Shown here: positions 50,250 through 64,000 of the stretch, piece after piece | Layout: every line of letters begins with the position of its first letter | Position numbering within the stretch: position 1 is the stretch's first letter | Assembly: GCF_018449475.1 (NCBI RefSeq) | Contig: NZ_JAHCQH010000012.1 | Span: forward strand, 62,001-126,000 | Origin: Ancylobacter radicis | GTDB taxonomy: Bacteria > Pseudomonadota > Alphaproteobacteria > Rhizobiales > Xanthobacteraceae | DNA: 64,000 nucleotides | Direction: 5' to 3' | Translations under genes and position numbers: made by a program | Notes under the pieces: generated by a model | What the model saw: the letters and a program-made list of their open reading frames with translations, nothing else | Database searches by the model: none | What the model was told of the DNA's origin: nothing

Positions 50250-51392
50250 ATGATTGTCAATGTCGAGGATGCCCGCGCCGCCGCCAAGGCCCGCCTGCCG
50301 CGCATCTTCTTCGATTATGTCGATGGCGGTGCCTTTGGCGAGGAGACGCTGGCCGCCAACCGCGCCGATTTCGCCCGCTGGACGCTGGTGCAGCGCGTGC
50401 TCAACGACATCTCCACGCGCGACCTCACCACGCACTATCTGGGCACCTCTCATCCCCTGCCCTTCATGCTCGGACCCGTTGGATTCCTTGGGCTTTATGC
50501 CGGAAACGGGGAGATCGCGGCGGCCCGCGCGGCCCATGCGGCGGGGGTACCCTTATGCCTCTCGACCTTCTCCATCGCCTCGATCGGTCAGCTGCGCGCC
50601 GCCACCTCCGGCCCGCTGGCGTTCCAGCTCTATGTGCTGTCCGATCGGGCGATCGGCGATGAATTGCTGGCCCAGGCGGAGGAGGCGGGCGTCGAGACGC
50701 TGTTCCTCACCGTCGACACCGCCATCACCTCGGTGCGCGAGCGCGACCTGCGCAACGGCTTCCGCGCGCTCACCCGCATCTCCCCCGCGCTCGGCCTGCG
50801 CCTGCTCGCGCGGCCGCGCTGGTGCCTCGACATGCTGCGCGCGGGAATGCCGGAAGTGGGCGCCATCGCGCATCGCCCGGAATTTGGAAAAGGCGTGTTG
50901 GAACAGGCGAGTAACCTCTCCCGGCGGATCGACATGGGGCTTTCCTGGGCCGATGTCGAGCGCCTGCGCGCGCGCTGGAAGGGCCGACTGGTGCTCAAGG
51001 GAATCCTGTCGCCGGAGGATGCGCGCCTTGCCCGCGCGGCCGGAGCGGATGCCATCGTCGTCTCCAACCATGGCGGGCGCCAGCTTGATGGCGCGCCCTC
51101 GACCATAGCCGCCCTGCCGGGCATCGCGGAAGCGGTCGATGGAGGTATAGAAATACTGTTCGACGGCGGCATTCGGCGCGGCGCCGATATCATCAAGGCG
51201 CTGGCGCTCGGCGCCTCCGGCGTGCTGCTCGGCCGCGCCTATGTCTATGGTCTGGCGGCGGCCGGCGAGGCCGGCGTCGCCCGCATCCTCGCCCATCTCA
51301 CCGAGGAGGTGAGCCTCACTCTGGGCCTGATGGGCCTCACCTCGATCGAACAACTGAAAAAGCTCGGCACGGCAGCCCTAAAACCCCGCTAG
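50250..51392 (+). CDS. FMN-dependent 2-hydroxyacid oxidase/dehydrogenase (LldD-like)
   Basis: The 380-residue TIM-barrel flavoprotein oxidises 2-hydroxyacids such as lactate, glycolate or mandelate to the 2-oxoacid. Tyr24 in FFDYVDGGAFGE, Lys250 in LVLKGI, and the catalytic His274 and Arg277 in VSNHGGRQLDGAPS are all present, followed by LFDGGIRRGADIIKALALGA. It is the last gene of the SDR-HisD-like-ADH-kinase unit, 28 bases after the kinase. It fits as the enzyme oxidising the 2-hydroxyacid made by the HisD-like dehydrogenase. Its TAG stop and that of the convergent purine operon share the tetranucleotide CTAG. Confidence 0.9.
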   Translation: MIVNVEDARAAAKARLPRIFFDYVDGGAFGEETLAANRADFARWTLVQRVLNDISTRDLTTHYLGTSHPLPFMLGPVGFLGLYAGNGEIAAARAAHAAGVPLCLSTFSIASIGQLRAATSGPLAFQLYVLSDRAIGDELLAQAEEAGVETLFLTVDTAITSVRERDLRNGFRALTRISPALGLRLLARPRWCLDMLRAGMPEVGAIAHRPEFGKGVLEQASNLSRRIDMGLSWADVERLRARWKGRLVLKGILSPEDARLARAAGADAIVVSNHGGRQLDGAPSTIAALPGIAEAVDGGIEILFDGGIRRGADIIKALALGASGVLLGRAYVYGLAAAGEAGVARILAHLTEEVSLTLGLMGLTSIEQLKKLGTAALKPR

Positions 51393-52276
51393 CTTCCTCT
51401 GTAAGTCGAGTAACTCCAGGGAGTTGCCACCAGAGGCACATGGTAGTGCCCCTCCGGCTCACTGATGGAAAAGCGGATCGGCACCTCCCCGAGGAACGGC
51501 TTTTCCGGCAGATCGAGCCCGCGCGCGGCGAAATAGGCGCCGATGGCGAAGACGATCTCATAGGTGCCAATGCGCAGCGGCACGTCGCCGATCAGCGGCG
51601 CAGCGGTGCGCCCATCCGCATTGGTGACGGCCTGCGCCAACAGCGCCCGCCCGGAGGCGCCGACCTCGAACAGCTCGACCTTAACCCCTTGCGCCGGCGC
51701 GCCTTTATGGGTGTCCAGCACATGGGTGGAGAGCCGCCCGGTGGTCTTCGGCAGACCCGCGCCGGTCACCCGCTCGACCAGCCGCAGCCTTGTGATATGA
51801 CCGATCTCATCGAGCGCGGTGGCGAGTTCCTGCGCCCGCTCATGGGCCAGCCGCGCCTCGAAGGCGTCGAGAATGGCGTCGCGGGTCTGGCGCCGCACGC
51901 AGATGACGAAGGGAAAGCCGAAGCGAGCGCGATAGGCCGCGTTCAGCCGCTCGAAACGCTCATACTCGGTGTCCGACAGCCGGTCGAGCCCGAGCCCGGC
52001 CTGTTCGGAGACCGACGCCGGTGCGATGGCACCCGCACGCGCCGCCTTACCGGCCAGATCGGGATGAGCGGCGACGAAGGCGACGCGCTCCTCCTCCGGG
52101 CGCTCCATCACCGCCTGCATCAAGCCGCCATGCAGCGCCGTCACGGTCGCGAACGGACGCCGGGCATAGGCGCCCGCCGCCACCCAGGGCGCGTGCTCGA
52201 AAATGCCATCCAGCGCGGCGATGAAGCCCGCCTCGTCCAGCTCGTTAAGCTGTTGCAGCGAAAGGGTTTCGGTCAC
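51389..52276 (-). CDS. Fused OHCU decarboxylase / 5-hydroxyisourate hydrolase
   Basis: The 295-residue protein combines two consecutive steps after uricase. The N-terminal domain (about 1-165) is 2-oxo-4-hydroxy-4-carboxy-5-ureidoimidazoline decarboxylase with catalytic His71 in HPDLAGKAA. The C-terminal domain (about 180-295) is the transthyretin-related hydroxyisourate hydrolase with His185 in LSTHVLDTHKGAPA, and it ends in the family-defining tetrapeptide YRGS. It converts hydroxyisourate via OHCU to S-allantoin. The start is GTG at 52276 with GAGGAGG in front. It is the last gene of the purine operon, nine bases after the xanthine dehydrogenase gene. Confidence 0.95.
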   Translation of the reverse strand: MTETLSLQQLNELDEAGFIAALDGIFEHAPWVAAGAYARRPFATVTALHGGLMQAVMERPEEERVAFVAAHPDLAGKAARAGAIAPASVSEQAGLGLDRLSDTEYERFERLNAAYRARFGFPFVICVRRQTRDAILDAFEARLAHERAQELATALDEIGHITRLRLVERVTGAGLPKTTGRLSTHVLDTHKGAPAQGVKVELFEVGASGRALLAQAVTNADGRTAAPLIGDVPLRIGTYEIVFAIGAYFAARGLDLPEKPFLGEVPIRFSISEPEGHYHVPLVATPWSYSTYRGS

Positions 52277-52285
52277 GCGGCCTCC

Positions 52286-55051
52286 TCACGTCCCGGCGAC
52301 AGCACGCGACGGATCGCCCGTCCGCATGTCGCTCTCCTGCTGGTCCGGCAGCAGCTTGTAGAGCCTATCCGCCGTGAACGGCGTCTGCCGCAGCCTTACG
52401 CCGGTGGCGTTGAAGATCGCGTTGGCCAGCGCCGGCGCCACCGGGTTGAACGGGCTCTCGCTCATCGACTTGGCGCCGAGCGGGCCGATACGGTCATGGG
52501 TGGCGGCAAATGATACCTCCGTCACCGGCACATCGGCGAAAGCAGGAATGTGGTAGCCGCGAAAGCTCGGATTGCTCACCCCACCCACATCATCCATGCG
52601 CAGCTCCTCATACAGCGCCGCCCCGATCGCCTGCGCCACCCCGCCCTCCACCTGCCCCCGGCACTGCATCGGGTTGATCACCGTGCCGGCATCCGCCCCA
52701 TGCACCGAACGGAGAATGCGGACTTCACCGGAATGGCGGTGCACGGCCACCTCGAAACCCTGCACATTGAAGGCGATGGAGCGGGGCGAACCATTTGATT
52801 GGCCTAGGCTTTCAAGCGGCGCGAGGTCGCCGATCGCGATCCGGCGCTCCCCCGCCAGCACCATGTCGCCCTCGATGCGGCAGGCCTCCGGCGCCACACA
52901 CAGACGCGCTCCGGCGGCCTCCCGGATCATCGCCGCGAGCGCCTCCGCCGCGCGCCGGGTCGCCTCGCCCGCTACCACCGTACCAGTGGAGCCATAGGCG
53001 CCGGTGTCGTGCGTCACATGATCGGTGTCGGACTGGCGGATGGTGATCTGGGCGATGGCGGCGCCAAGGATGGTGGCGGCAATCTGGGTGTGCACCGTCG
53101 TGGTGCCATTGCCGAATTCCGCGGTGCCGGTGGCAATATCGTACCGCCCTTCCGGCGTCAGGCGCAGGCGGGTCTCGCCGACATGGCCGCGCGGGGGAAT
53201 GGTGTCGATCATCGCCGCCGCCATGCCCCGCCCGACCAGCCAGTCCGGCCCCGGCGCGAGGCTGGGCTGGGACAGGGATGTCTCAACAAAATCAAGGCAT
53301 TGATCAAGGCCATAGCTGCCCAGTTCGACGTCGCTATGGCCCGCATCGGCTCCATGCAGCGGCGTGTCGGGGGTGATGACGTTGAGCCGGCGCAGGGTGA
53401 AGGGGTCGATGCCGAGCTTGTCCGCCAGTTCGTCCAGAGCGGATTCGACGGCGAAGATGGTCTGGCTCAGGCCATAGCCGCGAAAGGCGCCGCTCGGCAG
53501 GCTGTTGGTGTAGACGCTGTAGCCGTCGACCTTCTTGTTCGGGCAGGCATAGAGCGCCACGCACTCGCCCGCGCCATGGAACAGCACGCCGCCCGCATGA
53601 TTGCCGTAAGCCCCTGTATTCAGGAGCATTTCGAGCTGGATCGCGGTGAGTTTTCCCGCGCGCGTCGCCCCCAGCTTCACCCTCACGCGCATGGGATGGC
53701 GGCTGGTGGAGGCGGCGAACTGCTCGGCGCGGCTATATTCCAGCTTCACCGGACGGCCGGTCTTCAGCACGGCCAGGGCCACGATGTCCTCGACCAGCAT
53801 TTCCTGCTTGCCGCCGAAACCACCGCCGACACGCGCCGCGAAAACCCGTATCCTGTTGGCAGGCAAGGAGAAAAGCGTCGCCAGCGCATCGCGGGTGAGG
53901 AACGGGGTCTGGGTCGAGCTGCGGATGTTGAGCCGCCCATCACCGTCCAGCCAGCCGATCGCGCCATGGGTTTCCAGATGCGCGTGCTGCACTCTCTGGC
54001 TGCTATAGCTCGCCTCATGCACGATATCGGCGGCGGCAAAGCCGGCCGCGACGTCGCCGGTTGCGGTGTGAATCTGCGCGACGATGTTACGCAAAGGGTT
54101 GGAAATGCGTGATTCCGCCCCCTTGTCGCCATGGATCGCCGGCGCCCCCTCGGCCATTGCCGCCTCGGGATCGAACACCGCCGGCAGCATCTCATACTCC
54201 ACCCGGATGAGCGCGCAGGCGGCCTCCGCGATGGCCTCGCTCTGCGCCACCACAGCGCCTATTCGCTGACCGATGTGGCGGACGATCAGGCCGATCAGGC
54301 TTGTGTCATCAACATCATCGCTCATGTGATGATGCCGCGCGGTGGAGAACAGCCGGGTCGGCGCGTCCTCATGGGTCAGCACGGCGACGACGCCCGGCAG
54401 GGCGCGGGCGGCGGCGGTGTCGATCGACACAATCCGCGCATGCGGCACCTCGGCGCGCCGGATCTTCATATAGAGCAGCCCGGCGAGCTCCCCCTCCGGC
54501 GCGACATCCATGGTGTAGCGCGCCGCGCCGGTGACGACGTCCGGCCCCGCCGGGGCGGGCACGTTGCGCCCGACCGCGCCCCCCGCTACGCCCGCCGCCA
54601 CATCGGGGGCGGCATAGGCGATGCCCTCGATCGCGTCGGCAATGGCGCGGTAGCCGGTGCAGCGGCACAGATTACCTTTCAGCGCCGCCGGCAAATCGCG
54701 CTTCTGCCCCTGATCGAGCGCGGCGGCGGTCATCAGCATGCCCGCCGTGCAGAAGCCGCACTGAAAACCCTGCGCCTTGAGGAAGGCCTCCTGCATCGGA
54801 TGCAGGCCCGGCCCCTCGGCAAGAGCGGCAAGGCCCTCCACCGTCGTGACCGCGCAGCCCTCGGCGCGAAAGGCGGGGAAGAGGCAACTATGTACCGCCC
54901 GCCCCTCGACATGCACGGTGCAGGCGCCGCAATCGCCGGCATCGCAGCCCTTCTTCACCCCGAACCAGCCGAGCTCGCGCAGCAGGGTGCGCAGGCACTG
55001 GCCGGGACGGGGATCGACGCTGACGGATTGACCGTTGACGGTGAGATTCAC
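52286..55051 (-). CDS. Xanthine dehydrogenase, fused [2Fe-2S] and molybdopterin-binding subunit
   Basis: The 921-residue protein begins with a ferredoxin-like module with eight cysteines in two sets (36, 41, 44, 56 and 98, 101, 129, 131). The molybdenum-cofactor domains follow from about residue 165: [46 protein letters not shown] and the active-site glutamate region [17 protein letters not shown]. The FAD is on the separate protein encoded upstream. The setting between uricase and OHCU decarboxylase supports xanthine/hypoxanthine as substrates. Fusing the iron-sulfur module to the molybdenum subunit while leaving FAD separate is less common than three subunits or XdhA/B. No XdhC-type maturation gene is nearby. 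Confidence 0.88.
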
Positions 55052-55908
55052 GCCGCCCCCTCCGCCAGTTCCGCGCGGATTTCCCGCGCATAAAGCCGCG
55101 TCATGTGGCGGCGCCAGTCGGGGCGGCCATGCACGTCGTCATAATAGAGCGCGTCCGGCACCATAGAGGTAATATATTGCTCCAGCGCCGCGGCATCGGG
55201 GAGCGCGTCGAAGGCGAGCACCACCGGATGCCGCGTCGCGGCGGTAATGGTGAGGCGCACATCGCCCGCCGCGCCCCGCGTGCCGATCAGCAGCACGCCC
55301 GAGCGCCCGAGCGGGGTCAGCGAGGCCCGGCGGAAGGCGGCGCGGCGGCGCAACGCGGCCACGGGAATTTCCACCGCGCGCAGCACCTCACCCGGCCCCA
55401 GCGCAACATCGAGCGGCCCGCGCACGAAGGAAGCGACCGGCATGCGCCGCTCCGTCCCGTCCGGCGCCCAGATCAGCGCCTCGCCCTCCAGCGCGCTCAC
55501 CAGCGAGATCATCGGCCCGGCCGGCAGGCCAAGGCAGATATTGCCGCCCACGGTCGCCATGTTCCAGACCTTGAAGGAGGCGAGGAAGGCGCGGCAGCAC
55601 GCGCGGATCAACCCGCCGCCGCGCCAGTCCGGCGGCGGCTCGAAGGCGTTGAGGTCGGCGATGGTGCAGGTCGCGGCGATCGACAGCACGTCGTCGCGGA
55701 TCGCCAGCGGCGTCCAGCCCAGCGCGGTGAGATCGACAAGGCGGTGCGCGCCCGGCTGCGGCTCGGAAAACAGCCAGGTGCCACCGGCGAGAAAGGTGCC
55801 ACCGGCGAGACCGGCGCTGACCGCCGTCGCGGTCTCTCCCGTCCCGAGGGCGGCGAGGTCGCTGCGCGTGCGTGGGCGCAGCACGGCGGTCACGGCGTTG
55901 AGGTCCAT
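55048..55908 (-). CDS. Xanthine dehydrogenase FAD-binding subunit (CoxM family)
   Basis: The 286-residue protein has the CoxM/XDH FAD-domain motifs: [19 protein letters not shown] near the N-terminus and [20 protein letters not shown] for the second FAD-binding loop. A C-terminal CO_deh_flav_C domain follows. It passes electrons from the iron-sulfur clusters of the fused subunit to NAD+ or another acceptor. The ATG at 55908 follows the uricase stop by 14 bases. Its stop overlaps the next start (ATGA), so the two subunits are translationally coupled, as expected for a complex. Confidence 0.9.
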
Positions 55909-55922
55909 CCCGCCCCCGCCGC

Positions 55923-56765
55923 TCAACCGCGCCCGATGGTGCACTCGATCTGCCCGTGCGGCTCGTCGGTCGGCGTGAAGACCTGCCCGTCAAAGGCGCG
56001 CCCGAAGGGCGAGAGGTCGATCGGCAGATAATGCTTGTTCGGGCAGGCCAGCGAGATTTCCGCGATCTCCGGCACGGCGGCGAGCGCGGCCTCGCCCATG
56101 AGATACATCGTGTTCTGCACGCCGGGGCTGTAGGTGGTGGCGAAGACCTTGAGCCCCGCATCGAGAATGGCGGCATTGGCCTTCTCATAGGAAGCGGGCA
56201 CCCCGGACCACACCCAGGAGGCATCCATGGCGGTCGCGAACAGCCGGTCGGCGGTCGGCTTCAGCGTCGTCGCCTCGTCGAACCAGTAATTCTCCCAGCC
56301 CGATTCGGTGGTCTTGAGGAAGGTGAAGCCGGTGATGCCGGAGGCGAGGGTCCGGCTCTCCCGCGTTGCCGCGAGCTTGACGAAGGGGCGGCCATTGCCG
56401 TCCAGCGTGAAGGCGTGGTCATGCGGCGCGCCATCGACCCCGATGCGGCTCCACTTCGTCTCGCTGGCAAGGATGTCGACCCCGGCGACATGCGGGTAAC
56501 GATCGAGGAAATGGCTGGCGATGATGCCGACGAACACCTCGTTCTCCGCCCCGACATGATCGCGGGCGAGGAAGTTGACGATGTTCTTCACCGAATCGGT
56601 GGCGATGACGGAGCTGTTGTCGCCTTCCGTATAGGCGGCATCAAAGGCACCGGAGAGCATGACCTGCACGTTCAGTTCGCGCACCTCGTGGCAGGCGCTG
56701 TCGCGCGCCACGCGCATCACGCGCACGCGGCCCTTGCCATAGCTGTTTCGGATCAGCGCCATCAT
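55923..56765 (-). CDS. Urate oxidase (uricase)
   Basis: The cofactor-free enzyme oxidises urate to 5-hydroxyisourate. The 280-residue protein has the tunnelling-fold uricase motifs: NSYGKGRVRVMRV with the catalytic lysine, NSSVIATDSVKNIVNFLARD with the catalytic threonine and Asp, SGITGFTFLKTTESGW, and CPNKHYLPIDLSPFG near the C-terminus. It is the first gene of the purine operon uricase-FAD-FeS/Mo-OHCU/HIU. Two adjacent ATGs (56765 and 56762) are equally possible starts. It diverges from an SDR gene 202 bases away, and the gap must hold the operon promoter, although no obvious site was seen. Confidence 0.94.
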   Translation of the reverse strand: MMALIRNSYGKGRVRVMRVARDSACHEVRELNVQVMLSGAFDAAYTEGDNSSVIATDSVKNIVNFLARDHVGAENEVFVGIIASHFLDRYPHVAGVDILASETKWSRIGVDGAPHDHAFTLDGNGRPFVKLAATRESRTLASGITGFTFLKTTESGWENYWFDEATTLKPTADRLFATAMDASWVWSGVPASYEKANAAILDAGLKVFATTYSPGVQNTMYLMGEAALAAVPEIAEISLACPNKHYLPIDLSPFGRAFDGQVFTPTDEPHGQIECTIGRG

Positions 56766-56967
56766 CGTCTCCCTCACGCCCTCTTCCGCCCTTCCGCTGC
56801 CATGCGAAAGCAATGCCAGAGCGGGAACAGGCTGGCGCGCCGGCGCGCCTTCCGCCATTAGGCATGATCCGCCCTTGCGAGAAAAGCGATGCCTCAGCGA
56901 AAGCGGGTGTCGCGGGAGCGCGTGCCGATGAAAGATCGCGCGCCCCCCTGAGAGGAGAGCCGTGCCG

Positions 56968-57753
56968 ATGACCGAGGCCGCCCATATCCGCCGCCCGTTT
57001 TCCCTGGAGGGCCGCGTCGCCCTCGTCACCGGCGCCGGCCGGGGGCTCGGCTTCGAGATGGCGCGGGCGCTCGCCTTGTCAGGCGCCACGGTGATCATCA
57101 ATGGTCGCGACGAGGCGCGGCTGCGCGGCCCCGCCGAGGCCATCGCGGCTGAGGCAGGCCGGCATGTGGAGACCGCCGCCTTCGATGTCGCCGACACGGC
57201 CGCGGCCAGCGCGGCGATCACCGACATCGACCGGCGTTTCGGCCGGCTCGACATTCTCGTCAACAATGTCGGCATGCGCGACCGGCGCCCGCTGAAGGAC
57301 TTCACCGCGACCGAGATGCAGGCCCTGCTCGGCGCCGATCTCATTGCCCCCGCTTTGCTCGCGCGGGACGCCGCCGAGCTGATGGCGCGCCATCGCCACG
57401 GCCGGATCATCAACATCTCCTCGATCGCCGCCGCCGTCATCTATGGCCATGACGCGGTCTACAGCGCCGCCAAGGCCGGGCTGAACGGCCTGACACGGGC
57501 GCTGGCGGTGGACTATGCGCGGGCCGGCATCACCGCCAACGCCATCGCGCCCGGCATGTTCGCCACCGAGACCAACCAGGCCATGGTGCAGAACCCTGAT
57601 CTGGCCGCCTTCGTCGACCTGCGCGTGCCGGTCGGCCGCTGGGGCCGCCCGGCGGAGATCGGCGCGGCGGCGGTGTTCCTCGCCTCGGACGAGGCCTCCT
57701 TCGTCAATGGCCACATCCTCGTCGTCGATGGCGGGCAGACCGTGCGGATGTGA
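56968..57753 (+). CDS. SDR family oxidoreductase (gluconate 5-dehydrogenase-like)
   Basis: The 261-residue classical SDR has TGAGRGLGFEMA, NNVG in ILVNNVGMRDRRPL, the catalytic serine in IINISSIAA and YSAAK as the YxxxK pair, followed by APGMFATETN and VDGGQTV at the C-terminus. It resembles gluconate 5-dehydrogenase-type enzymes, but the substrate is not certain. The ATG at 56968 is preferred over the GTG at 56962, with AGAGGAGAG upstream. It is divergent from the purine operon and followed after 68 bases by a TenA-like gene. Confidence 0.85.
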   Translation: MTEAAHIRRPFSLEGRVALVTGAGRGLGFEMARALALSGATVIINGRDEARLRGPAEAIAAEAGRHVETAAFDVADTAAASAAITDIDRRFGRLDILVNNVGMRDRRPLKDFTATEMQALLGADLIAPALLARDAAELMARHRHGRIINISSIAAAVIYGHDAVYSAAKAGLNGLTRALAVDYARAGITANAIAPGMFATETNQAMVQNPDLAAFVDLRVPVGRWGRPAEIGAAAVFLASDEASFVNGHILVVDGGQTVRM

Positions 57754-59529: not shown

Positions 59530-60723
59530 ATGAAGATCCTGATGGTATCCCCAATAACGGCGTGCCCGCCGACGGCGGGCAACCGGGCGCGCGTAGTCGC
59601 GCTGGCGCGGGCCGTCCGCGATCTCGGCCACGAACTGCATTTCGCGTTTCTCGCCCCCATTCATACGGACGACGCAACAGCCCATGCCGACAACGAGCCC
59701 GAATTCGGCCGGGGGCGCTTTCATCTCGTTTCGCTCAGCGACAAGGACACGCTGCACAGCAGAATTCGCGCGCGCTGGCGCCGGGCTCGGCGTGAATACA
59801 ACATATTCAACCCACACATCTACCGTCTGGATGAATTTTACTATCCAAGCTACGATCGCAGTCTAAGATTTTTGCAAGATACGCATCGGTTTGATGCGGT
59901 GATCTGCGAATATGTTTTCATGTCCCGCGCGCTCGAAAACTTCGATGCCGCGACGCTCAAGATTCTCGACACGCATGATGCGTTCGGCGACCGGCACCTC
60001 GAATTCCTCAAGGTCGGGCGGACGCCGCAATGGTTCTCCACCCCCAAGGCGCAGGAACTGCGCGGGTTCCGGCGCGCCGATGCGGTGATCGCCATCCAGC
60101 CGAGCGAGGCCGAGCGTTTTTCCCGTGATCTGGGCAGCACGCCGCCGCAGATGCACACGATCAGCCATTTTCTCGACCTGTCGCGCCGCGCGACGCTGAG
60201 CGATGCGCCGGCGGCGGTGTTCGTCGGCTCGCGCAACGACATCAACATCAGTGCCGTCGATCATCTGCAAAAGGCGATCCTGCCGCGCATTCTCGCGCGT
60301 CGGCCGGATTTCCGCCTCGTGGTGGCCGGGGCGATCTGCGAGCGGGTTCCCGACCAGCCCGGCGTGGTCAAGCTCGGACAGGTCAATCACGTCTCGGACG
60401 CCTTCGCCCACGCCCCGATCTCGCTCAACCCGACGATCTTCGGCACCGGCATCAACATCAAGCAGCTCGACGCCATGGCGGCGGGCGTGCCCAGCGTGAG
60501 CACGCAGACCGGCAGCCGCGGCTTCGAGGCCCCGGAACGCGACGCCTATATCGCCACCGTCCCGGATGATGACCCCGACGGCTTCGCCGAAGCGGTGGTC
60601 GCGCTGCTGGCGGACCCGGATCGCTGCCGGCTCATGGCGGACAGCGCATTCGCCGCCGCACAGGCATGGAACCAGCGGCAGATGGATGCGCTGGCGACAC
60701 TCCTTGTGTCGAAAACGGTATGA
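59530..60723 (+). CDS. Glycosyltransferase family 4-like protein
   Basis: The 397-residue protein has the GT-B layout. The N-terminus MKILMVSPITACPPTAGNRA carries the glycine/asparagine loop typical of family 4 acceptor domains. The C-terminal domain has AAVFVGSRNDINISAVDHL, FRLVVAGAICERVP, and the nucleotide-sugar part SLNPTIFGTGINIKQLDAMAAG followed by PSVSTQTG. It would add a sugar to a surface polysaccharide or glycoprotein. It is the first gene after mucR and begins the glycan locus. The 59338-59529 gap upstream shows no clear promoter. Confidence 0.85.
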   Translation: MKILMVSPITACPPTAGNRARVVALARAVRDLGHELHFAFLAPIHTDDATAHADNEPEFGRGRFHLVSLSDKDTLHSRIRARWRRARREYNIFNPHIYRLDEFYYPSYDRSLRFLQDTHRFDAVICEYVFMSRALENFDAATLKILDTHDAFGDRHLEFLKVGRTPQWFSTPKAQELRGFRRADAVIAIQPSEAERFSRDLGSTPPQMHTISHFLDLSRRATLSDAPAAVFVGSRNDINISAVDHLQKAILPRILARRPDFRLVVAGAICERVPDQPGVVKLGQVNHVSDAFAHAPISLNPTIFGTGINIKQLDAMAAGVPSVSTQTGSRGFEAPERDAYIATVPDDDPDGFAEAVVALLADPDRCRLMADSAFAAAQAWNQRQMDALATLLVSKTV

Positions 60724-60793
60724 AACTGACATCATATCGCGTGAAAAATCCGCTTTCGTGTAAGCTCGCCATGTTGCAGTGCGGTGGAATGGA

Positions 60794-61504
60794 ATGACCG
60801 ACGTTCGAGCGTTGCTGACGGGCGTGTATGAGATGGTCCGGCAGGATCTGCCGACCCTGCTGTCCATGCGCCGCAACATCACCTGGAAGGACGACGGCAG
60901 CCCGGTGACGGATGCCGACCTGCGGGTCGAGAAGCACGTACATGCCTATCTGCGCGCGCATCTGCCGGACCTCACCTTCGTCTGCGAGGAGAGCTACGCG
61001 CCGGGCGGGGATGAAAGCCCCACAGCCTGGACCGCCGTGCTCGACCCGATCGACGGCACGGAGAATTTCTGCTCCGGCTTCAAGGAATGGGGCGTCTCGC
61101 TCTCGCTCTGGCACGAGGGCGCCCATGCGGGTAGCGCGCTGCTGCTGCCGGAGCTCGGCGACAGCCTGATGAGCGGCGACAAAATCGAGTATCAGCGTTC
61201 GCGCATCATCGGTTTCTCGTCGTCGATCACAGATGAACTGGCGGCACGAGTGGCCCGCGCGGGGGAAGCGCGGATCATGGGCTGCGCGGTCTATAATCTG
61301 TTCAACGTCACGCGCGGGGCGCTGGCGGGGTTCTCAAATCCGGCCGGCGCCAAAAGCTGGGACATTCTTGCGGGTCTCATGCTGGCGCGTGAACACGGCT
61401 GCGACATCGACGTGGAGGGGGCACTCTATGGCGGACACTATCTCCGACCTGATCGCAAATATCGCTTCGACATACGCCACCGATACGATCTTCATCCTGG
61501 GTAA
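60794..61504 (+). CDS. Inositol-monophosphatase-family phosphatase
   Basis: The 236-residue protein has the metal-dependent phosphatase signatures: EES at residues 65-67, DPIDGTENF at 84-92 and the second metal motif KSWDILAGLMLA near residue 195. It is a little shorter than typical family members (about 260). Related enzymes hydrolyse inositol phosphates, PAP or sugar phosphates. Here, between a glycosyltransferase and a NeuB-type synthase, dephosphorylation of a nonulosonic-acid intermediate is plausible but unproven. The ATG at 60794 has GGTGGAATGGA upstream. Its last 77 bases overlap the following gene. Confidence 0.83.
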   Translation: MTDVRALLTGVYEMVRQDLPTLLSMRRNITWKDDGSPVTDADLRVEKHVHAYLRAHLPDLTFVCEESYAPGGDESPTAWTAVLDPIDGTENFCSGFKEWGVSLSLWHEGAHAGSALLLPELGDSLMSGDKIEYQRSRIIGFSSSITDELAARVARAGEARIMGCAVYNLFNVTRGALAGFSNPAGAKSWDILAGLMLAREHGCDIDVEGALYGGHYLRPDRKYRFDIRHRYDLHPG

Positions 61505-62966
61505 GGGGCCTTCGGCGGATCTCATCGACCCGCAGGTCTTCTCCTCCGCCATGGTGATCGCGCTCAACGATGCCGAGCAGATCGCCCCGGCCGACATCTC
61601 CATCTTCCACGCCGACTGGGCGAAGGCGAGCATCGCCGCGAACGGCTATCGCTCGCGCGCCTATCTCACCTCGACCGACTTCACCGCGCCGCTGCGCCAG
61701 GTCGTGCATGTCGAGCATACGCCGCTGACCCAGGAATCCACCGATCTGATGATGCAGCGCTTCCAGGCGGGCGTGCTGGTGATCGAGGACATCCTGTTCA
61801 TCACGGCGCTGCAGGTCGCGCGCAAGGTGGCGGCGCTGCGCGGCCGGCCGCAGACCATCTACATGGTCGGCTTCGACTTCAACTTCGAGGCCGGCCACAC
61901 CTATAGCGAACGCGTCGAGCGCGACTTCGCCGCCGGCAGCGAGGCGGACCGCCGGCTGGTCTTCACCATGCAGGAATTCTTCTTCATCAACGCGCTCTAC
62001 ATCCTCAAGGGATCCGAGCTGGAGGTGAAGCATGTCGGCGCCAAGCCGTTCAGCGTGCTCTCGCCGACCGAGCTGAACCACATGTTCGGCCGGCGGCTCG
62101 ATGCCCCGGAAGACGGGCACCCGCGCAAGGTCTCGGTGGTCGCCGAGCTCACCACCAATCATTTCGGCGACCGGCTGCGGCTGGAGCGCATGATCCGCTC
62201 GGCCAAGGCCTCGGGCGCCGACCATATCAAGCTGCAGAAGCGCGACGTCGACAGCTTCTACGCGCCCGAGCAGCTCACCGCGCCCTATGTCTCGCCCTTC
62301 GGCAAGACCTTTGCCGACTATCGGCATCAGCTCGAACTCTCGCGCGACGATTTCGCCTTTGTCGACAAGCTGTGCCGCGACCTCAATATCGGCTGGTTCG
62401 TCTCGGTGCTGGACGAACCCTCCTTCCGCTTCCTCCAGGAATTCGACCCGCCGATCATCAAGCTGCCCTCGACCATTTCCGAGCACCGCGACTATCTCGA
62501 TTATGTCTCGAAGAACTACACGCGCAGCGTCGTGCTCTCGACCGGCATGACCGACGATGCCTATGAACGCTGGGTTCTGGAGACCTTCACCTCCTGCGAG
62601 CAGCTCATCCTGATGCAGGCCAATTCGGCCTACCCGACCCCGCTGGAGGATTGCGGCGTCGGCATCGTCCGGCACTATCACGAACTGTCCAAGGTCCACC
62701 CGCACATCGTGCCGGCCTATTCGAGCCATGATTTCGGCTGGCTCGGCTCGGCGCTGGCCGTGGCGGCGGGTGCCCGCATGGTCGAGAAGCACGTCAAGCT
62801 CGGCAATACCGAATGGGCGCATTTCGACGCGGTCGCGGTCGACCTCACCACGCCGGCCTTCAAGGACTATGTCGACCACATCCGCGAAGCCGAGCGGATC
62901 GTCGGCGAGGAAGAAAAGAAGGTCAATTCGAGCGAACACCACAAATACCGCCGCAAGGCGAGCTGA
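61428..62966 (+). CDS. Fusion of a sialyltransferase/DUF115-like domain with a NeuB-type nonulosonic acid synthase
   Basis: The 512-residue protein has two parts. Residues about 18-215 show a Rossmann-like fold with FILGKGPSADLID, IYMVGFDFNFEAGHTY and NALYILKGSELEVKHVG, a pattern shared by DUF115 and GT42 (Cst-type) sialyltransferases. Residues about 234-505 are a NeuB TIM barrel: VSVVAELTTNHFGDRLRLE, GADHIKLQKRDVDSFY, PIIKLPSTISEH, VVLSTGMTDDA, ANSAYPTPLEDCGVG and YSSHDFGWLGSALAVAAGA. The barrel would condense phosphoenolpyruvate with a hexose derivative. The usual C-terminal SAF domain is absent, as the protein ends just after the barrel. The ATG at 61428 has GGAGGGGG in front and lies inside the preceding gene. 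Confidence 0.85.
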   Translation: MADTISDLIANIASTYATDTIFILGKGPSADLIDPQVFSSAMVIALNDAEQIAPADISIFHADWAKASIAANGYRSRAYLTSTDFTAPLRQVVHVEHTPLTQESTDLMMQRFQAGVLVIEDILFITALQVARKVAALRGRPQTIYMVGFDFNFEAGHTYSERVERDFAAGSEADRRLVFTMQEFFFINALYILKGSELEVKHVGAKPFSVLSPTELNHMFGRRLDAPEDGHPRKVSVVAELTTNHFGDRLRLERMIRSAKASGADHIKLQKRDVDSFYAPEQLTAPYVSPFGKTFADYRHQLELSRDDFAFVDKLCRDLNIGWFVSVLDEPSFRFLQEFDPPIIKLPSTISEHRDYLDYVSKNYTRSVVLSTGMTDDAYERWVLETFTSCEQLILMQANSAYPTPLEDCGVGIVRHYHELSKVHPHIVPAYSSHDFGWLGSALAVAAGARMVEKHVKLGNTEWAHFDAVAVDLTTPAFKDYVDHIREAERIVGEEEKKVNSSEHHKYRRKAS

Positions 62967-62981
62967 TCCAGGACCGATCTC

Positions 62982-63704
62982 ATGCGCGTTGTCTCCCTCA
63001 TCATCGGCCGTGGCGGCAGCTCCCTCAAGGACAAGAACATCCTGCCCGTCTTCGGCATTCCGCTCCTTCTCTGGTCGGCATCGGCTGCCGTGCGCAGCAC
63101 CTATGTGAACGACTATTACGTCAGCAGCGACGACGAGAAGATACTGAGCACGGCCAGCCAGGCGGGCTACAAGCCGATCGTGCGGCCGGAGGCGCTGTCG
63201 TCAGCCACCGCCCAGAGCTGCGATGCCGTACGCCACGCGCTGGAGATCATCGAGGCGGATGGCGGCCCGGCCGACATCGTCGTCGTCCAGCATGCCAATG
63301 TCGGCACGATCACCGCGCAGATGATCGACGAGTGCATCGAATTGCTGCTCGCCACTCCCCATGCCTCCTCCGTCGTGCCCTCGCATGACAAGGCCGAATA
63401 TCACCCGATGCGGGCCAAGCGCGTGACCGCCGACGGCATGCTGGTGCCCTTCGTGGAAACGGCGGGGCCGGTCTCCGCCAACCGGCAGGACCTGCCCAAG
63501 GCGCTGTTCTTCGACCATTCCTTCTGGGTACTGCGCGGACGCTCCGCCATCTTCGCCCCCGACGGCCAGCTTCCCTGGAACTGCATGGGCCCGGTCATCC
63601 TGCCCTACGAGACCCATGGCTGCCTCGACATCCACTCGCTGGAAGACCTGAAGCTGACCGAGGAGTGGATCACCGAGAACAAGGTTCCGACACCCGAGTT
63701 CTGA
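62982..63704 (+). CDS. Acylneuraminate cytidylyltransferase (NeuA-like CMP-sugar synthetase)
   Basis: The 240-residue protein activates a nonulosonic acid with CTP to the CMP-sugar. The N-terminal nucleotide-binding signature IIGRGGSSLKDKNI (residues 7-20) is present, followed by YYVSSDDEKIL, where neuA proteins have the substrate-strand SSDD, and VVQHANVGTITAQMID in place of the usual LQPTSPLR. The change from LQPTSPLR to VQHANVG suggests altered substrate recognition. It follows the NeuB fusion by 15 bases, giving a NeuB-NeuA pair that indicates a sialic/legionaminic-type acid on the cell surface. Confidence 0.88.
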   Translation: MRVVSLIIGRGGSSLKDKNILPVFGIPLLLWSASAAVRSTYVNDYYVSSDDEKILSTASQAGYKPIVRPEALSSATAQSCDAVRHALEIIEADGGPADIVVVQHANVGTITAQMIDECIELLLATPHASSVVPSHDKAEYHPMRAKRVTADGMLVPFVETAGPVSANRQDLPKALFFDHSFWVLRGRSAIFAPDGQLPWNCMGPVILPYETHGCLDIHSLEDLKLTEEWITENKVPTPEF

Positions 63705-63801: not shown

Positions 63802-64000
63802 GTGACCAATTTTCACTGCATCATCTGCCATGATTCTGCTTCGCCGACCGAAGTCATTGACCATATCAAGGGCGACGCATCCGGCACGTTGACGGCGGTT
63901 CGTTGCCGCGCCTGCGGCCACATCCAGCTCAATCCCCCGGAATACAGTCTGGATTTCTACGAAGAGAACGGGCAGGTGAACAACGTTCTTCGGATGTACG
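63802..64000 (+). CDS. N-terminal part of a zinc-ribbon protein, probably a SAM methyltransferase (cut off)
   Basis: A GTG start at 63802, preceded by AGAGGA, opens a frame that runs off the window after 66 codons. The visible sequence has two CxxC pairs (CIIC at residues 6-9 and CRAC at 35-38), as in the zinc-binding N-terminal domain of sugar C-methyltransferases and related SAM enzymes, followed by GHIQLNPPEY and FYEEN. The methyltransferase domain itself would lie beyond base 64000. The position in the glycan locus suits a sugar- or glycan-modifying enzyme. Codon use in the first 60 bases is less GC-rich than in the genes before it. Confidence 0.6.
   Translation, partial: MTNFHCIICHDSASPTEVIDHIKGDASGTLTAVRCRACGHIQLNPPEYSLDFYEENGQVNNVLRMY

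Follow-up and report, generated by a model that had tools for sequence, protein, structure and literature searches.

What does a NeuB-type synthase make when it lacks the SAF (antifreeze-like) domain, to which completion of the NeuB active site is usually ascribed, and carries a second domain in front of the barrel? This question is raised by a gene near the 3' end of the window, by which we mean the whole 64,000-nucleotide stretch of Ancylobacter radicis DNA analyzed here (contig NZ_JAHCQH010000012.1, positions 62,001 to 126,000). The gene (61428..62966, plus strand) encodes a protein of 512 aa, referred to below as the fusion, in which an N-terminal Rossmann-like domain with a predicted DUF115-like fold (residues 1-220; 61428..62087, plus strand) precedes a NeuB barrel (residues 235-506; 62130..62945, plus strand). 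It starts with ATG, has a third-position GC content of 0.88 in frame and is preceded by the Shine-Dalgarno-like sequence GGAGGGGG (61414..61421, plus strand; read directly from the DNA), which ends 6 nt upstream of the start codon. The fusion, which was the subject of an earlier note on this DNA, is recurrent: a scan of genome contigs found 43 relatives and three further genomes of the same genus also carry it, showing that the arrangement is not due to chance. The open reading frame is therefore a real gene, and its domain architecture is conserved within a known enzyme family. The enzyme, whose product is probably an unusual acidic sugar for the surface coats of bacteria, is firmly assigned as a synthase, and a phosphorylated route is likely. 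The whole explanation that we favor, namely that the fusion is the synthase of a three-gene cassette for a cytidine monophosphate (CMP)-linked ulosonic acid and that its N-terminal domain acts as a CMP-sugar-type sensor or hand-off module, is in our judgment evenly poised between right and wrong.

The C-terminal half clearly belongs to the NeuB family. Pfam NeuB (PF03102) matches residues 255-497 (E 8e-40, 137 bits versus a cut-off of 22.1), and the NCBIfam models NeuB_NnaB and PseI match residues 235-506, both under their equivalog cut-offs (TIGR03569 and TIGR03586, 113 and 103 bits versus 400 and 340). In the full-length AlphaFold2 (AF2) model (pLDDT 84, pTM 0.59), the C-terminal half matches the structures of PseI, NeuB, and SpsE; more distant structural matches include 3-deoxy-D-arabino-heptulosonate 7-phosphate (DAH7P) synthases, one of them fused to chorismate mutase. 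The family core pattern (E, NH, K.Q, K..S, YP, S.H, E.H) is present in the fusion, including Y402/P403. The core residues E240, N244, H245, K268, Q270, K345, S348, Y402, S432, H434, E453, and H455, which were also aligned to PDB 1xuu, 8h2c, and 1vli, do not vary among the 51 fusion rows or the six SAF-less NeuBs, and they are found in 15/15 SAF-bearing NeuBs except for S348 (14/15). The 51 rows represent 50 distinct sequences, since the identical proteins L008 (from the same-genus genome G024) and L029 (Ancylobacter sp. Lp-2) were both counted. The frameshifted gene L063, a fragment in our first alignment, was excluded; this copy from Nesterenkonia pannonica (L063 8001-9539) appeared as four tblastn pieces. 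Barrel fold and core residues are thus the same as in NeuB/NnaB, PseI, and SpsE, which we take to carry a C-terminal SAF domain in the structures named above. These enzymes differ from the fusion in having no N-terminal domain and another acceptor loop after EKH: K457, H465, and F466 occur in 51/51 fusion rows and N460 in 49/51, whereas other NeuBs have T at position 457, mostly T or P at 465, D at 466, and R at 460.

As the earlier note had stated from the sequence, the barrel that these Pfam and NCBIfam models recognize is not followed by a SAF domain; no SAF profile matched the fusion protein at E ≤ 1, and all 51 aligned rows lack the domain. A separately encoded SAF partner, which the note had named as a finding that would speak against its proposal, was not found either. 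The genome contains a single NeuB match and a single SAF match, and the latter lies on another contig, in a protein of 456 aa that combines DRL-oxidoreductase with NAD-binding domains, and is therefore not a separate partner. At the expected start of SAF, the fusion carries the motif EHHKY (residues 503-507; 62934..62948, plus strand), which is present in 51/51 fusion rows, 0-19 residues from the protein end, and whose HH and Y are not conserved among other NeuBs. An EHHKY-like C-terminus, ASEHYKFK, in a neighbor protein (L093 12151-13176) was considered and dropped because its homolog at L089 does not have it.

Loss of SAF is not confined to the fusion. Among the 21 non-fusion NeuBs examined, six (L009, L011, L092, L097, L098, and L099; e.g., from Sinorhizobium meliloti pSymB) lack both SAF and the N-terminal domain, a count that is not a frequency because the SAF-less NeuBs were partly hand-picked from annotated plasmid matches. 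The remaining 15 (L010 plus 14/14 others) have a SAF domain confirmed by Pfam. The best-scoring non-fusion NeuBs against the C-terminal half were mostly SAF-less (L092, L009, L099, L011, L097, L098); two that do bear SAF, L010 and L012, ranked among them. The SAF-less proteins share with the fusion the QKR signature (residues 270-272; 62235..62243, plus strand) and a basic residue at position 299. K271, R272, and R299 are present in 51/51 fusion rows; in the SAF-less NeuBs, K271 and R272 are each found in 6/6 and position 299 is R in 4/6 or K in 2/6, whereas the SAF-bearing NeuBs have K271 in 1/15, R272 in 2/15, and R299 in 1/15. Unlike the fusion, they have no EHHKY, and where a phosphatase gene was found nearby, it is of the HAD type instead of the inositol-monophosphatase type described below. 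A tree computed from 38 NeuB domains, 17 of them fusion rows, places the fusions in a single clade (100/100) on a long branch and 14 of the 15 SAF-bearing NeuBs in one group (95/97); the SAF-less NeuBs fall outside the SAF-bearing group in two places, their exact position being weakly supported. The L095 and L096 copies of L009 and L011 were excluded as duplicates from the tree and from the residue comparison. We suggest that the EHHKY tail stands in the place of SAF and that K271, R272, and R299 are candidate compensating or substrate contacts. Two related sightings are a second, NeuB-half-only match (query 207-506) at L056 8150-9019 on the minus strand of a contig that also holds a complete fusion, and five NeuB-half matches, at least one of them SAF-less, in genome G032 from the same family as the window genome.

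The fusion gene stands in a cassette. Upstream, and overlapping its start by 77 nt, lies a gene for a 241-aa inositol-monophosphatase-family phosphatase (IMPase; 60779..61504, plus strand; Pfam Inositol_P, E 7e-25), whose motifs EE, DPIDGT, and WD are invariant in 27 aligned homologs. Downstream follows a gene for a 240-aa acylneuraminate/KDO-type cytidylyltransferase (62982..63704, plus strand; Pfam CTP_transf_3, E 1e-11; PseF, E 2e-18, below cut-off). An IMPase gene adjoins or overlaps the fusion start in 36/47 loci (35 times by 56-104 nt and once by 4 nt, with start codons picked by script); a cytidylyltransferase gene lies within the examined flanks of 36/47. These neighbor counts are based on profiles, as the gene caller picked antisense ORFs in some loci. 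Genes for a synthase, a phosphatase, and a cytidylyltransferase are thus found together, the combination expected of a phosphorylated Kdn/Kdo-type pathway. In Escherichia coli and Enterobacter, the order cytidylyltransferase-IMPase-fusion is found in ABC-type capsule loci with rml genes. The four annotated enterobacterial stretches, three from E. coli (two with the same, 100% identical DNA) and one from Enterobacter, name no NeuC, Pse, Leg, or other ulosonate precursor gene, while hypothetical proteins remain among their products. The possible precursors listed in a report on plasmid-borne group 3B capsule clusters include CMP-sialic acid, myo-inositol, and CMP-Neu5Ac (PMC10433991); the identity of those clusters with the fusion-bearing E. 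coli loci is not established.

The genome content further narrows the substrate. No profile match to PF02350 (UDP-GlcNAc-2-epimerase/NeuC), PseG, or NanE was found in the A. radicis genome, and the same profiles were positive in 11, 5, and 8 of 14 control genomes, respectively. N-acetylmannosamine (ManNAc), ManNAc-6-phosphate (ManNAc-6-P), and Pse precursors made by those enzymes are therefore unlikely, which would leave a neutral phosphorylated aldose as the simplest substrate. We propose that the NeuB barrel, whose family and core residues are those of known synthases, would condense phosphoenolpyruvate (PEP) with such an aldose to a ulosonate phosphate. For the aldose, a phosphorylated neutral sugar of central metabolism, e.g., mannose-6-phosphate, is more probable than ManNAc or an amino-deoxy sugar. 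The IMPase encoded by the overlapping gene may then strip the phosphate after condensation, the cytidylyltransferase would, judging from its family, form the CMP-sugar, and separate transferases would place the sugar in a capsule or another surface glycan. The N-terminal domain may bind a nucleotide sugar, e.g., the CMP end product, as a feedback sensor or hand-off module and not as a transferase; this is the weakest step of the proposal. A precedent for a phosphorylated route in bacteria is the nonulosonic acid (NulO) synthase of Leptospira interrogans, a NeuB-type synthase with an extra domain for which such a pathway was proposed (PMC3438082). In the portions of that paper available to us, the extra domain is a C-terminal phosphatase, no N-terminal Rossmann domain is described, and nothing is said of SAF, whereas in Ancylobacter the phosphatase is a separate gene.

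Phosphatase genes also accompany the standalone SAF-less NeuBs. A HAD phosphatase is encoded in the flanks of 4/6 of them, in three cases (L095, L096, L097) in one chain with the cytidylyltransferase, and in only 1/14 SAF-bearing control loci (L010/L100, also QKR-bearing). The comparison is no more than indicative, as the flanks covered about 5 kb per side for most controls (three shortened by contig ends) and 6-8 kb or more for the SAF-less NeuBs. The role of SAF becomes testable through a family whose 51 aligned rows all lack the domain and through the link of SAF loss with a basic QKR...R set and nearby phosphatases. As an observation in its own right, S. meliloti pSymB (L097 5989-11087) and L070 have a SAF-less NeuB gene beside a cytidylyltransferase-HAD phosphatase fusion, and both also have a fusion of CST-I and GT8 domains.

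Several observations weigh against the phosphorylated cassette pathway. The IMPase gene is not adjacent in 11/47 copies, two of which have one elsewhere in the flank; the nine copies for which none was found all come from Nesterenkonia or Garicola (two with <430 nt of upstream sequence, one frameshifted). In 11/47 copies, no cytidylyltransferase gene was found in the examined flanks. Near the control L104, which bears SAF, there is a weak IMPase match (E 3e-7). Another NeuB with SAF, at L095 1631 and not among the 14 control loci, shares its stretch with a HAD gene some 6.5 kb away, and the SAF-less L098 and L099 have flanks in which no phosphatase was found, L098 lying beside pseB/pseC. The human ManNAc-6-P enzyme carries a SAF domain, meaning that SAF loss and a phosphorylated substrate need not go together. 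PDB 6ncs from Leptospira has Q-A-Y at the QKR site; if 6ncs is the phosphatase-fused enzyme, which is not established, QKR is no general mark of a phosphorylated substrate. The phosphatase could also act on the aldose before condensation. Finally, the full-length model does not resolve the packing of the two domains or the tail.

The fusion gene is rare and patchy and has probably been transferred. In a search of 101 genomes of relatives, full-length copies were found in four, i.e., the A. radicis genome and three of the same genus, and all other matches were limited to the NeuB half. A profile of the N-terminal domain matched 2/398 genomes of the phylum, both times within a fusion. Full-length relatives come from Proteobacteria, Actinobacteria, a Deinococcales and a cyanobacterial metagenome-assembled genome, and E. 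coli/Enterobacter capsule loci; host records include Asticcacaulis, Sphingomonas, Devosia, Roseomonas-type bacteria, Aquabacterium, Pectobacterium, Halomonas, Nesterenkonia, and Demequina. Among 58 matching records of a plasmid collection, three covered at least 80% of the query, one of them a 4.9-Mb record. A DNA search with one E. coli copy matched 4 of 5426 E. coli genomes, three over at least 80% of the query; requiring near-identity, it would miss more distant copies. None of 11 pattern matches in viral contigs was a relative, and two NeuB-only matches in phage records did not reach 80% query coverage.

The N-terminal domain has diverged far more than the barrel. Its identity to the window protein ranges from 25% to 88% over the 51 rows, and in the five copies that have diverged most, identity drops to 25-29%, as compared to 55-58% for the NeuB half. 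Nevertheless, 21 of its residues are invariant in 51/51 rows, among them G25, K26, G27, S29, D150, and F151. The earlier note had singled out a GKGPS loop and an FDF...GHTYS segment. Both are located as described: GKGPS occupies residues 25-29 (61500..61514, plus strand) directly after the β-strand 20-24, and FDFNFEAGHTYS corresponds to residues 149-160. GHTYS itself is poorly kept, with H157 lying within an insertion found in 3/51 rows. An AF2 model of the domain based on 32 of the 43 N-domains (structure predictions exclude L006-L008) has a pLDDT of 92.6 and a pTM of 0.91 and confidently shows a Rossmann-like fold, which resembles that of DUF115 proteins. Thirteen of the 21 invariant residues fall into the 42/220 positions that lie no more than six residues past a strand end (hypergeometric P 5e-6, ignoring phylogeny and with turn glycines contributing), where a Rossmann sheet usually binds its ligand. 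Among the invariant residues, K26, D48, E50, E120, and D150 are charged and lie at or close to strand ends.

The kinship of this domain is less clear-cut than its fold. Foldseek against BFVD (viral models) returned 15 matches at E ≤ 1e-3, most of them uncharacterized; two carry the name MptE-like, with E-values of 7.7e-5 and 1.9e-4 and a TMq of about 0.5, predicted models being compared on both sides. Against the PDB, nothing was found at E ≤ 1e-3, and the best 50 of 1083 matches consist of generic Rossmann enzymes without a GT42 entry; a PDB sequence search with the domain profile gave two matches, both with E above 1. hhalign aligned the domain to nine pooled DUF115 domains with 86% probability; the corresponding values were 24% and 7% for two DUF115 subsets, 5% for the L045 domain of MptE-like type, and 27% for one CST-I protein, compared to 0.1% for a GT29 domain and 0.1% for two unrelated control proteins; CST-I versus pooled DUF115, a positive control, scored 94%. 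The Pfam MptE-like model (PF01973) matches 1/32 N-domains at E 0.15, i.e., it does not recognize them despite the matching fold and the GxGPS loop, and the CST-I model (PF06002) matches none of the 32 at E ≤ 1. Inspection by eye found three features common to the domain and two CST-I proteins (L070 and L097): GxGPS, an Asn following strand 2, and a motif of the form hydrophobic-G-x-D. However, the N of CST-I GNGPS is replaced by K in 51/51 fusion rows, and no conserved His occurs between F151 and Q182, where both CST-I proteins have KHSL, whose His is catalytic in GT42; columns 152 to 185 hold a His in at most 8/51 rows, and the sole invariant His of the domain is H202 in the last strand. Of the two affinities that the note had offered, Cst-type or DUF115, the second is thus retained as a likeness in fold, borne by the BFVD matches, and the first is not upheld. 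Judged from the model, we provisionally file the domain as DUF115-like in fold and assign it to neither the DUF115 nor the GT42 family. Its most likely, though unproven, role is that of a ligand binder, possibly for a CMP-sugar, acting as sensor or hand-off module.

The DUF115/MptE-like family is said to include the Maf flagellin glycosyltransferases, and the earlier note had envisaged a chain that both makes and transfers the sugar: the C-terminal half would make the ulosonic acid and the GT42/DUF115-like N-terminal half would transfer it after CMP activation by the neighbor. The fold, the motifs common to the domain and the two CST-I proteins, and the 21 residues kept at such low identity would fit, but the changed GNGPS loop and the missing His would not. 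Activation requires a separate gene in any case, and a scan of ten neighbor proteins from other loci identified two of polysialyltransferase type (L025, L034) and one GT29 (L041), besides one sub-threshold MptE-like protein (L045), two with GT2 domains, and four without a transferase family; because separate sialyltransferase-type genes are found near these three copies, an obligatory transferase role is less likely. No sialyltransferase-type gene was identified in the window's own locus. Moreover, if a transferase stayed the same in phyla whose surface-glycan loci differ greatly, it would presumably need an acceptor that is equally constant. We therefore regard a bifunctional enzyme as unlikely. 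The note's other proposal was that the N-terminal domain replaces SAF in binding substrate. In its structural form, in which the domain completes the active site of the neighboring subunit, it agrees with the finding that all complete aligned members have the domain and lack SAF. It is weakened by the six NeuBs that lack both, which show that SAF loss does not require gaining the domain, and compensating contacts are more readily sought in the EHHKY tail and in K271, R272, and R299. The domain is probably not a SAF substitute, and we consider this proposal improbable.

Alternatively, the N-terminal domain might catalyze an earlier step, e.g., aldose supply or phosphorylation. MptE is a pterin pyrophosphokinase and gives the DUF115 Pfam family part of its name, the charged invariant residues K26, D48, E50, E120, and D150 could serve catalysis, and the cassette-bearing capsule loci name no other precursor enzyme in the stretches shown. 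Since Pfam and NCBIfam models identify no kinase or isomerase in the domain, and the MptE-like model reaches only the single match at E 0.15, we hold an earlier step to be rather unlikely. RefSeq labels the homologs "N-acetylneuraminate synthase family protein," and the NeuB_NnaB profile (E 1e-32, 113 bits) would seem to support an ordinary enzyme acting on ManNAc, as per automatic annotation. The score is far from the equivalog cut-off of 400, the genome has no PF02350 or NanE match, and the acceptor-side loop differs in 51/51 rows, making this assignment very improbable.

A bolder form of the favored reading holds that the cassette represents a horizontally spread, undescribed CMP-ulosonic-acid pathway, with a SAF-less NeuB acting on a phosphorylated neutral sugar, an IMPase in place of a phosphatase of the HAD type, and, fused to the synthase, a degenerate domain resembling sialyltransferases that senses the CMP-sugar or hands it on. 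We put this forward tentatively, as a possibility with the balance somewhat against it. Among the matches listed from the open-licence PMC literature, titles and abstract openings contain no description of the fusion's architecture. If the pathway exists, capsule loci annotated as making sialic acid, including plasmid-borne ones of E. coli, would make a different acidic sugar. Either way, "N-acetylneuraminate synthase" labels in environmental bacteria and E. coli capsule loci may hide another ulosonic acid and call for caution. The fused domains of some DAH7P synthases, which belong to the same barrel superfamily, are regulatory; should the N-terminal domain bind a CMP-sugar but not transfer it, this would be a parallel case, a pseudo-glycosyltransferase used for regulation.

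The cassette is flanked upstream by a gene for a GT4-type glycosyltransferase (59530..60723, plus strand; Pfam Glyco_trans_1_4, E 1.5e-19) and downstream by the start of a class I methyltransferase gene that runs past the window (63802..64000, plus strand; Pfam Methyltransf_23, E 2e-26). Beyond it, the locus encodes a protein of 923 aa whose HAD match falls narrowly below cut-off, as well as an ABC transporter and a protein with weak likeness to GT4. At L045 4470-7334, a TPR protein with the sub-threshold MptE-like domain is encoded directly upstream of the cassette; L060 and L066 have members of its cluster. L018 1408-3363 is a 652-aa open frame that combines NeuB and SAF with what is probably a xylose-isomerase-like barrel (PF01261), a family matched by one of the 14 SAF-bearing controls. 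Elsewhere in the window, 51389-57440 holds what by eye resembles a purine-degradation gene group, with a xanthine-dehydrogenase-like ORF, a possible OHCU-decarboxylase/HIU-hydrolase fusion, and a uricase-like ORF.

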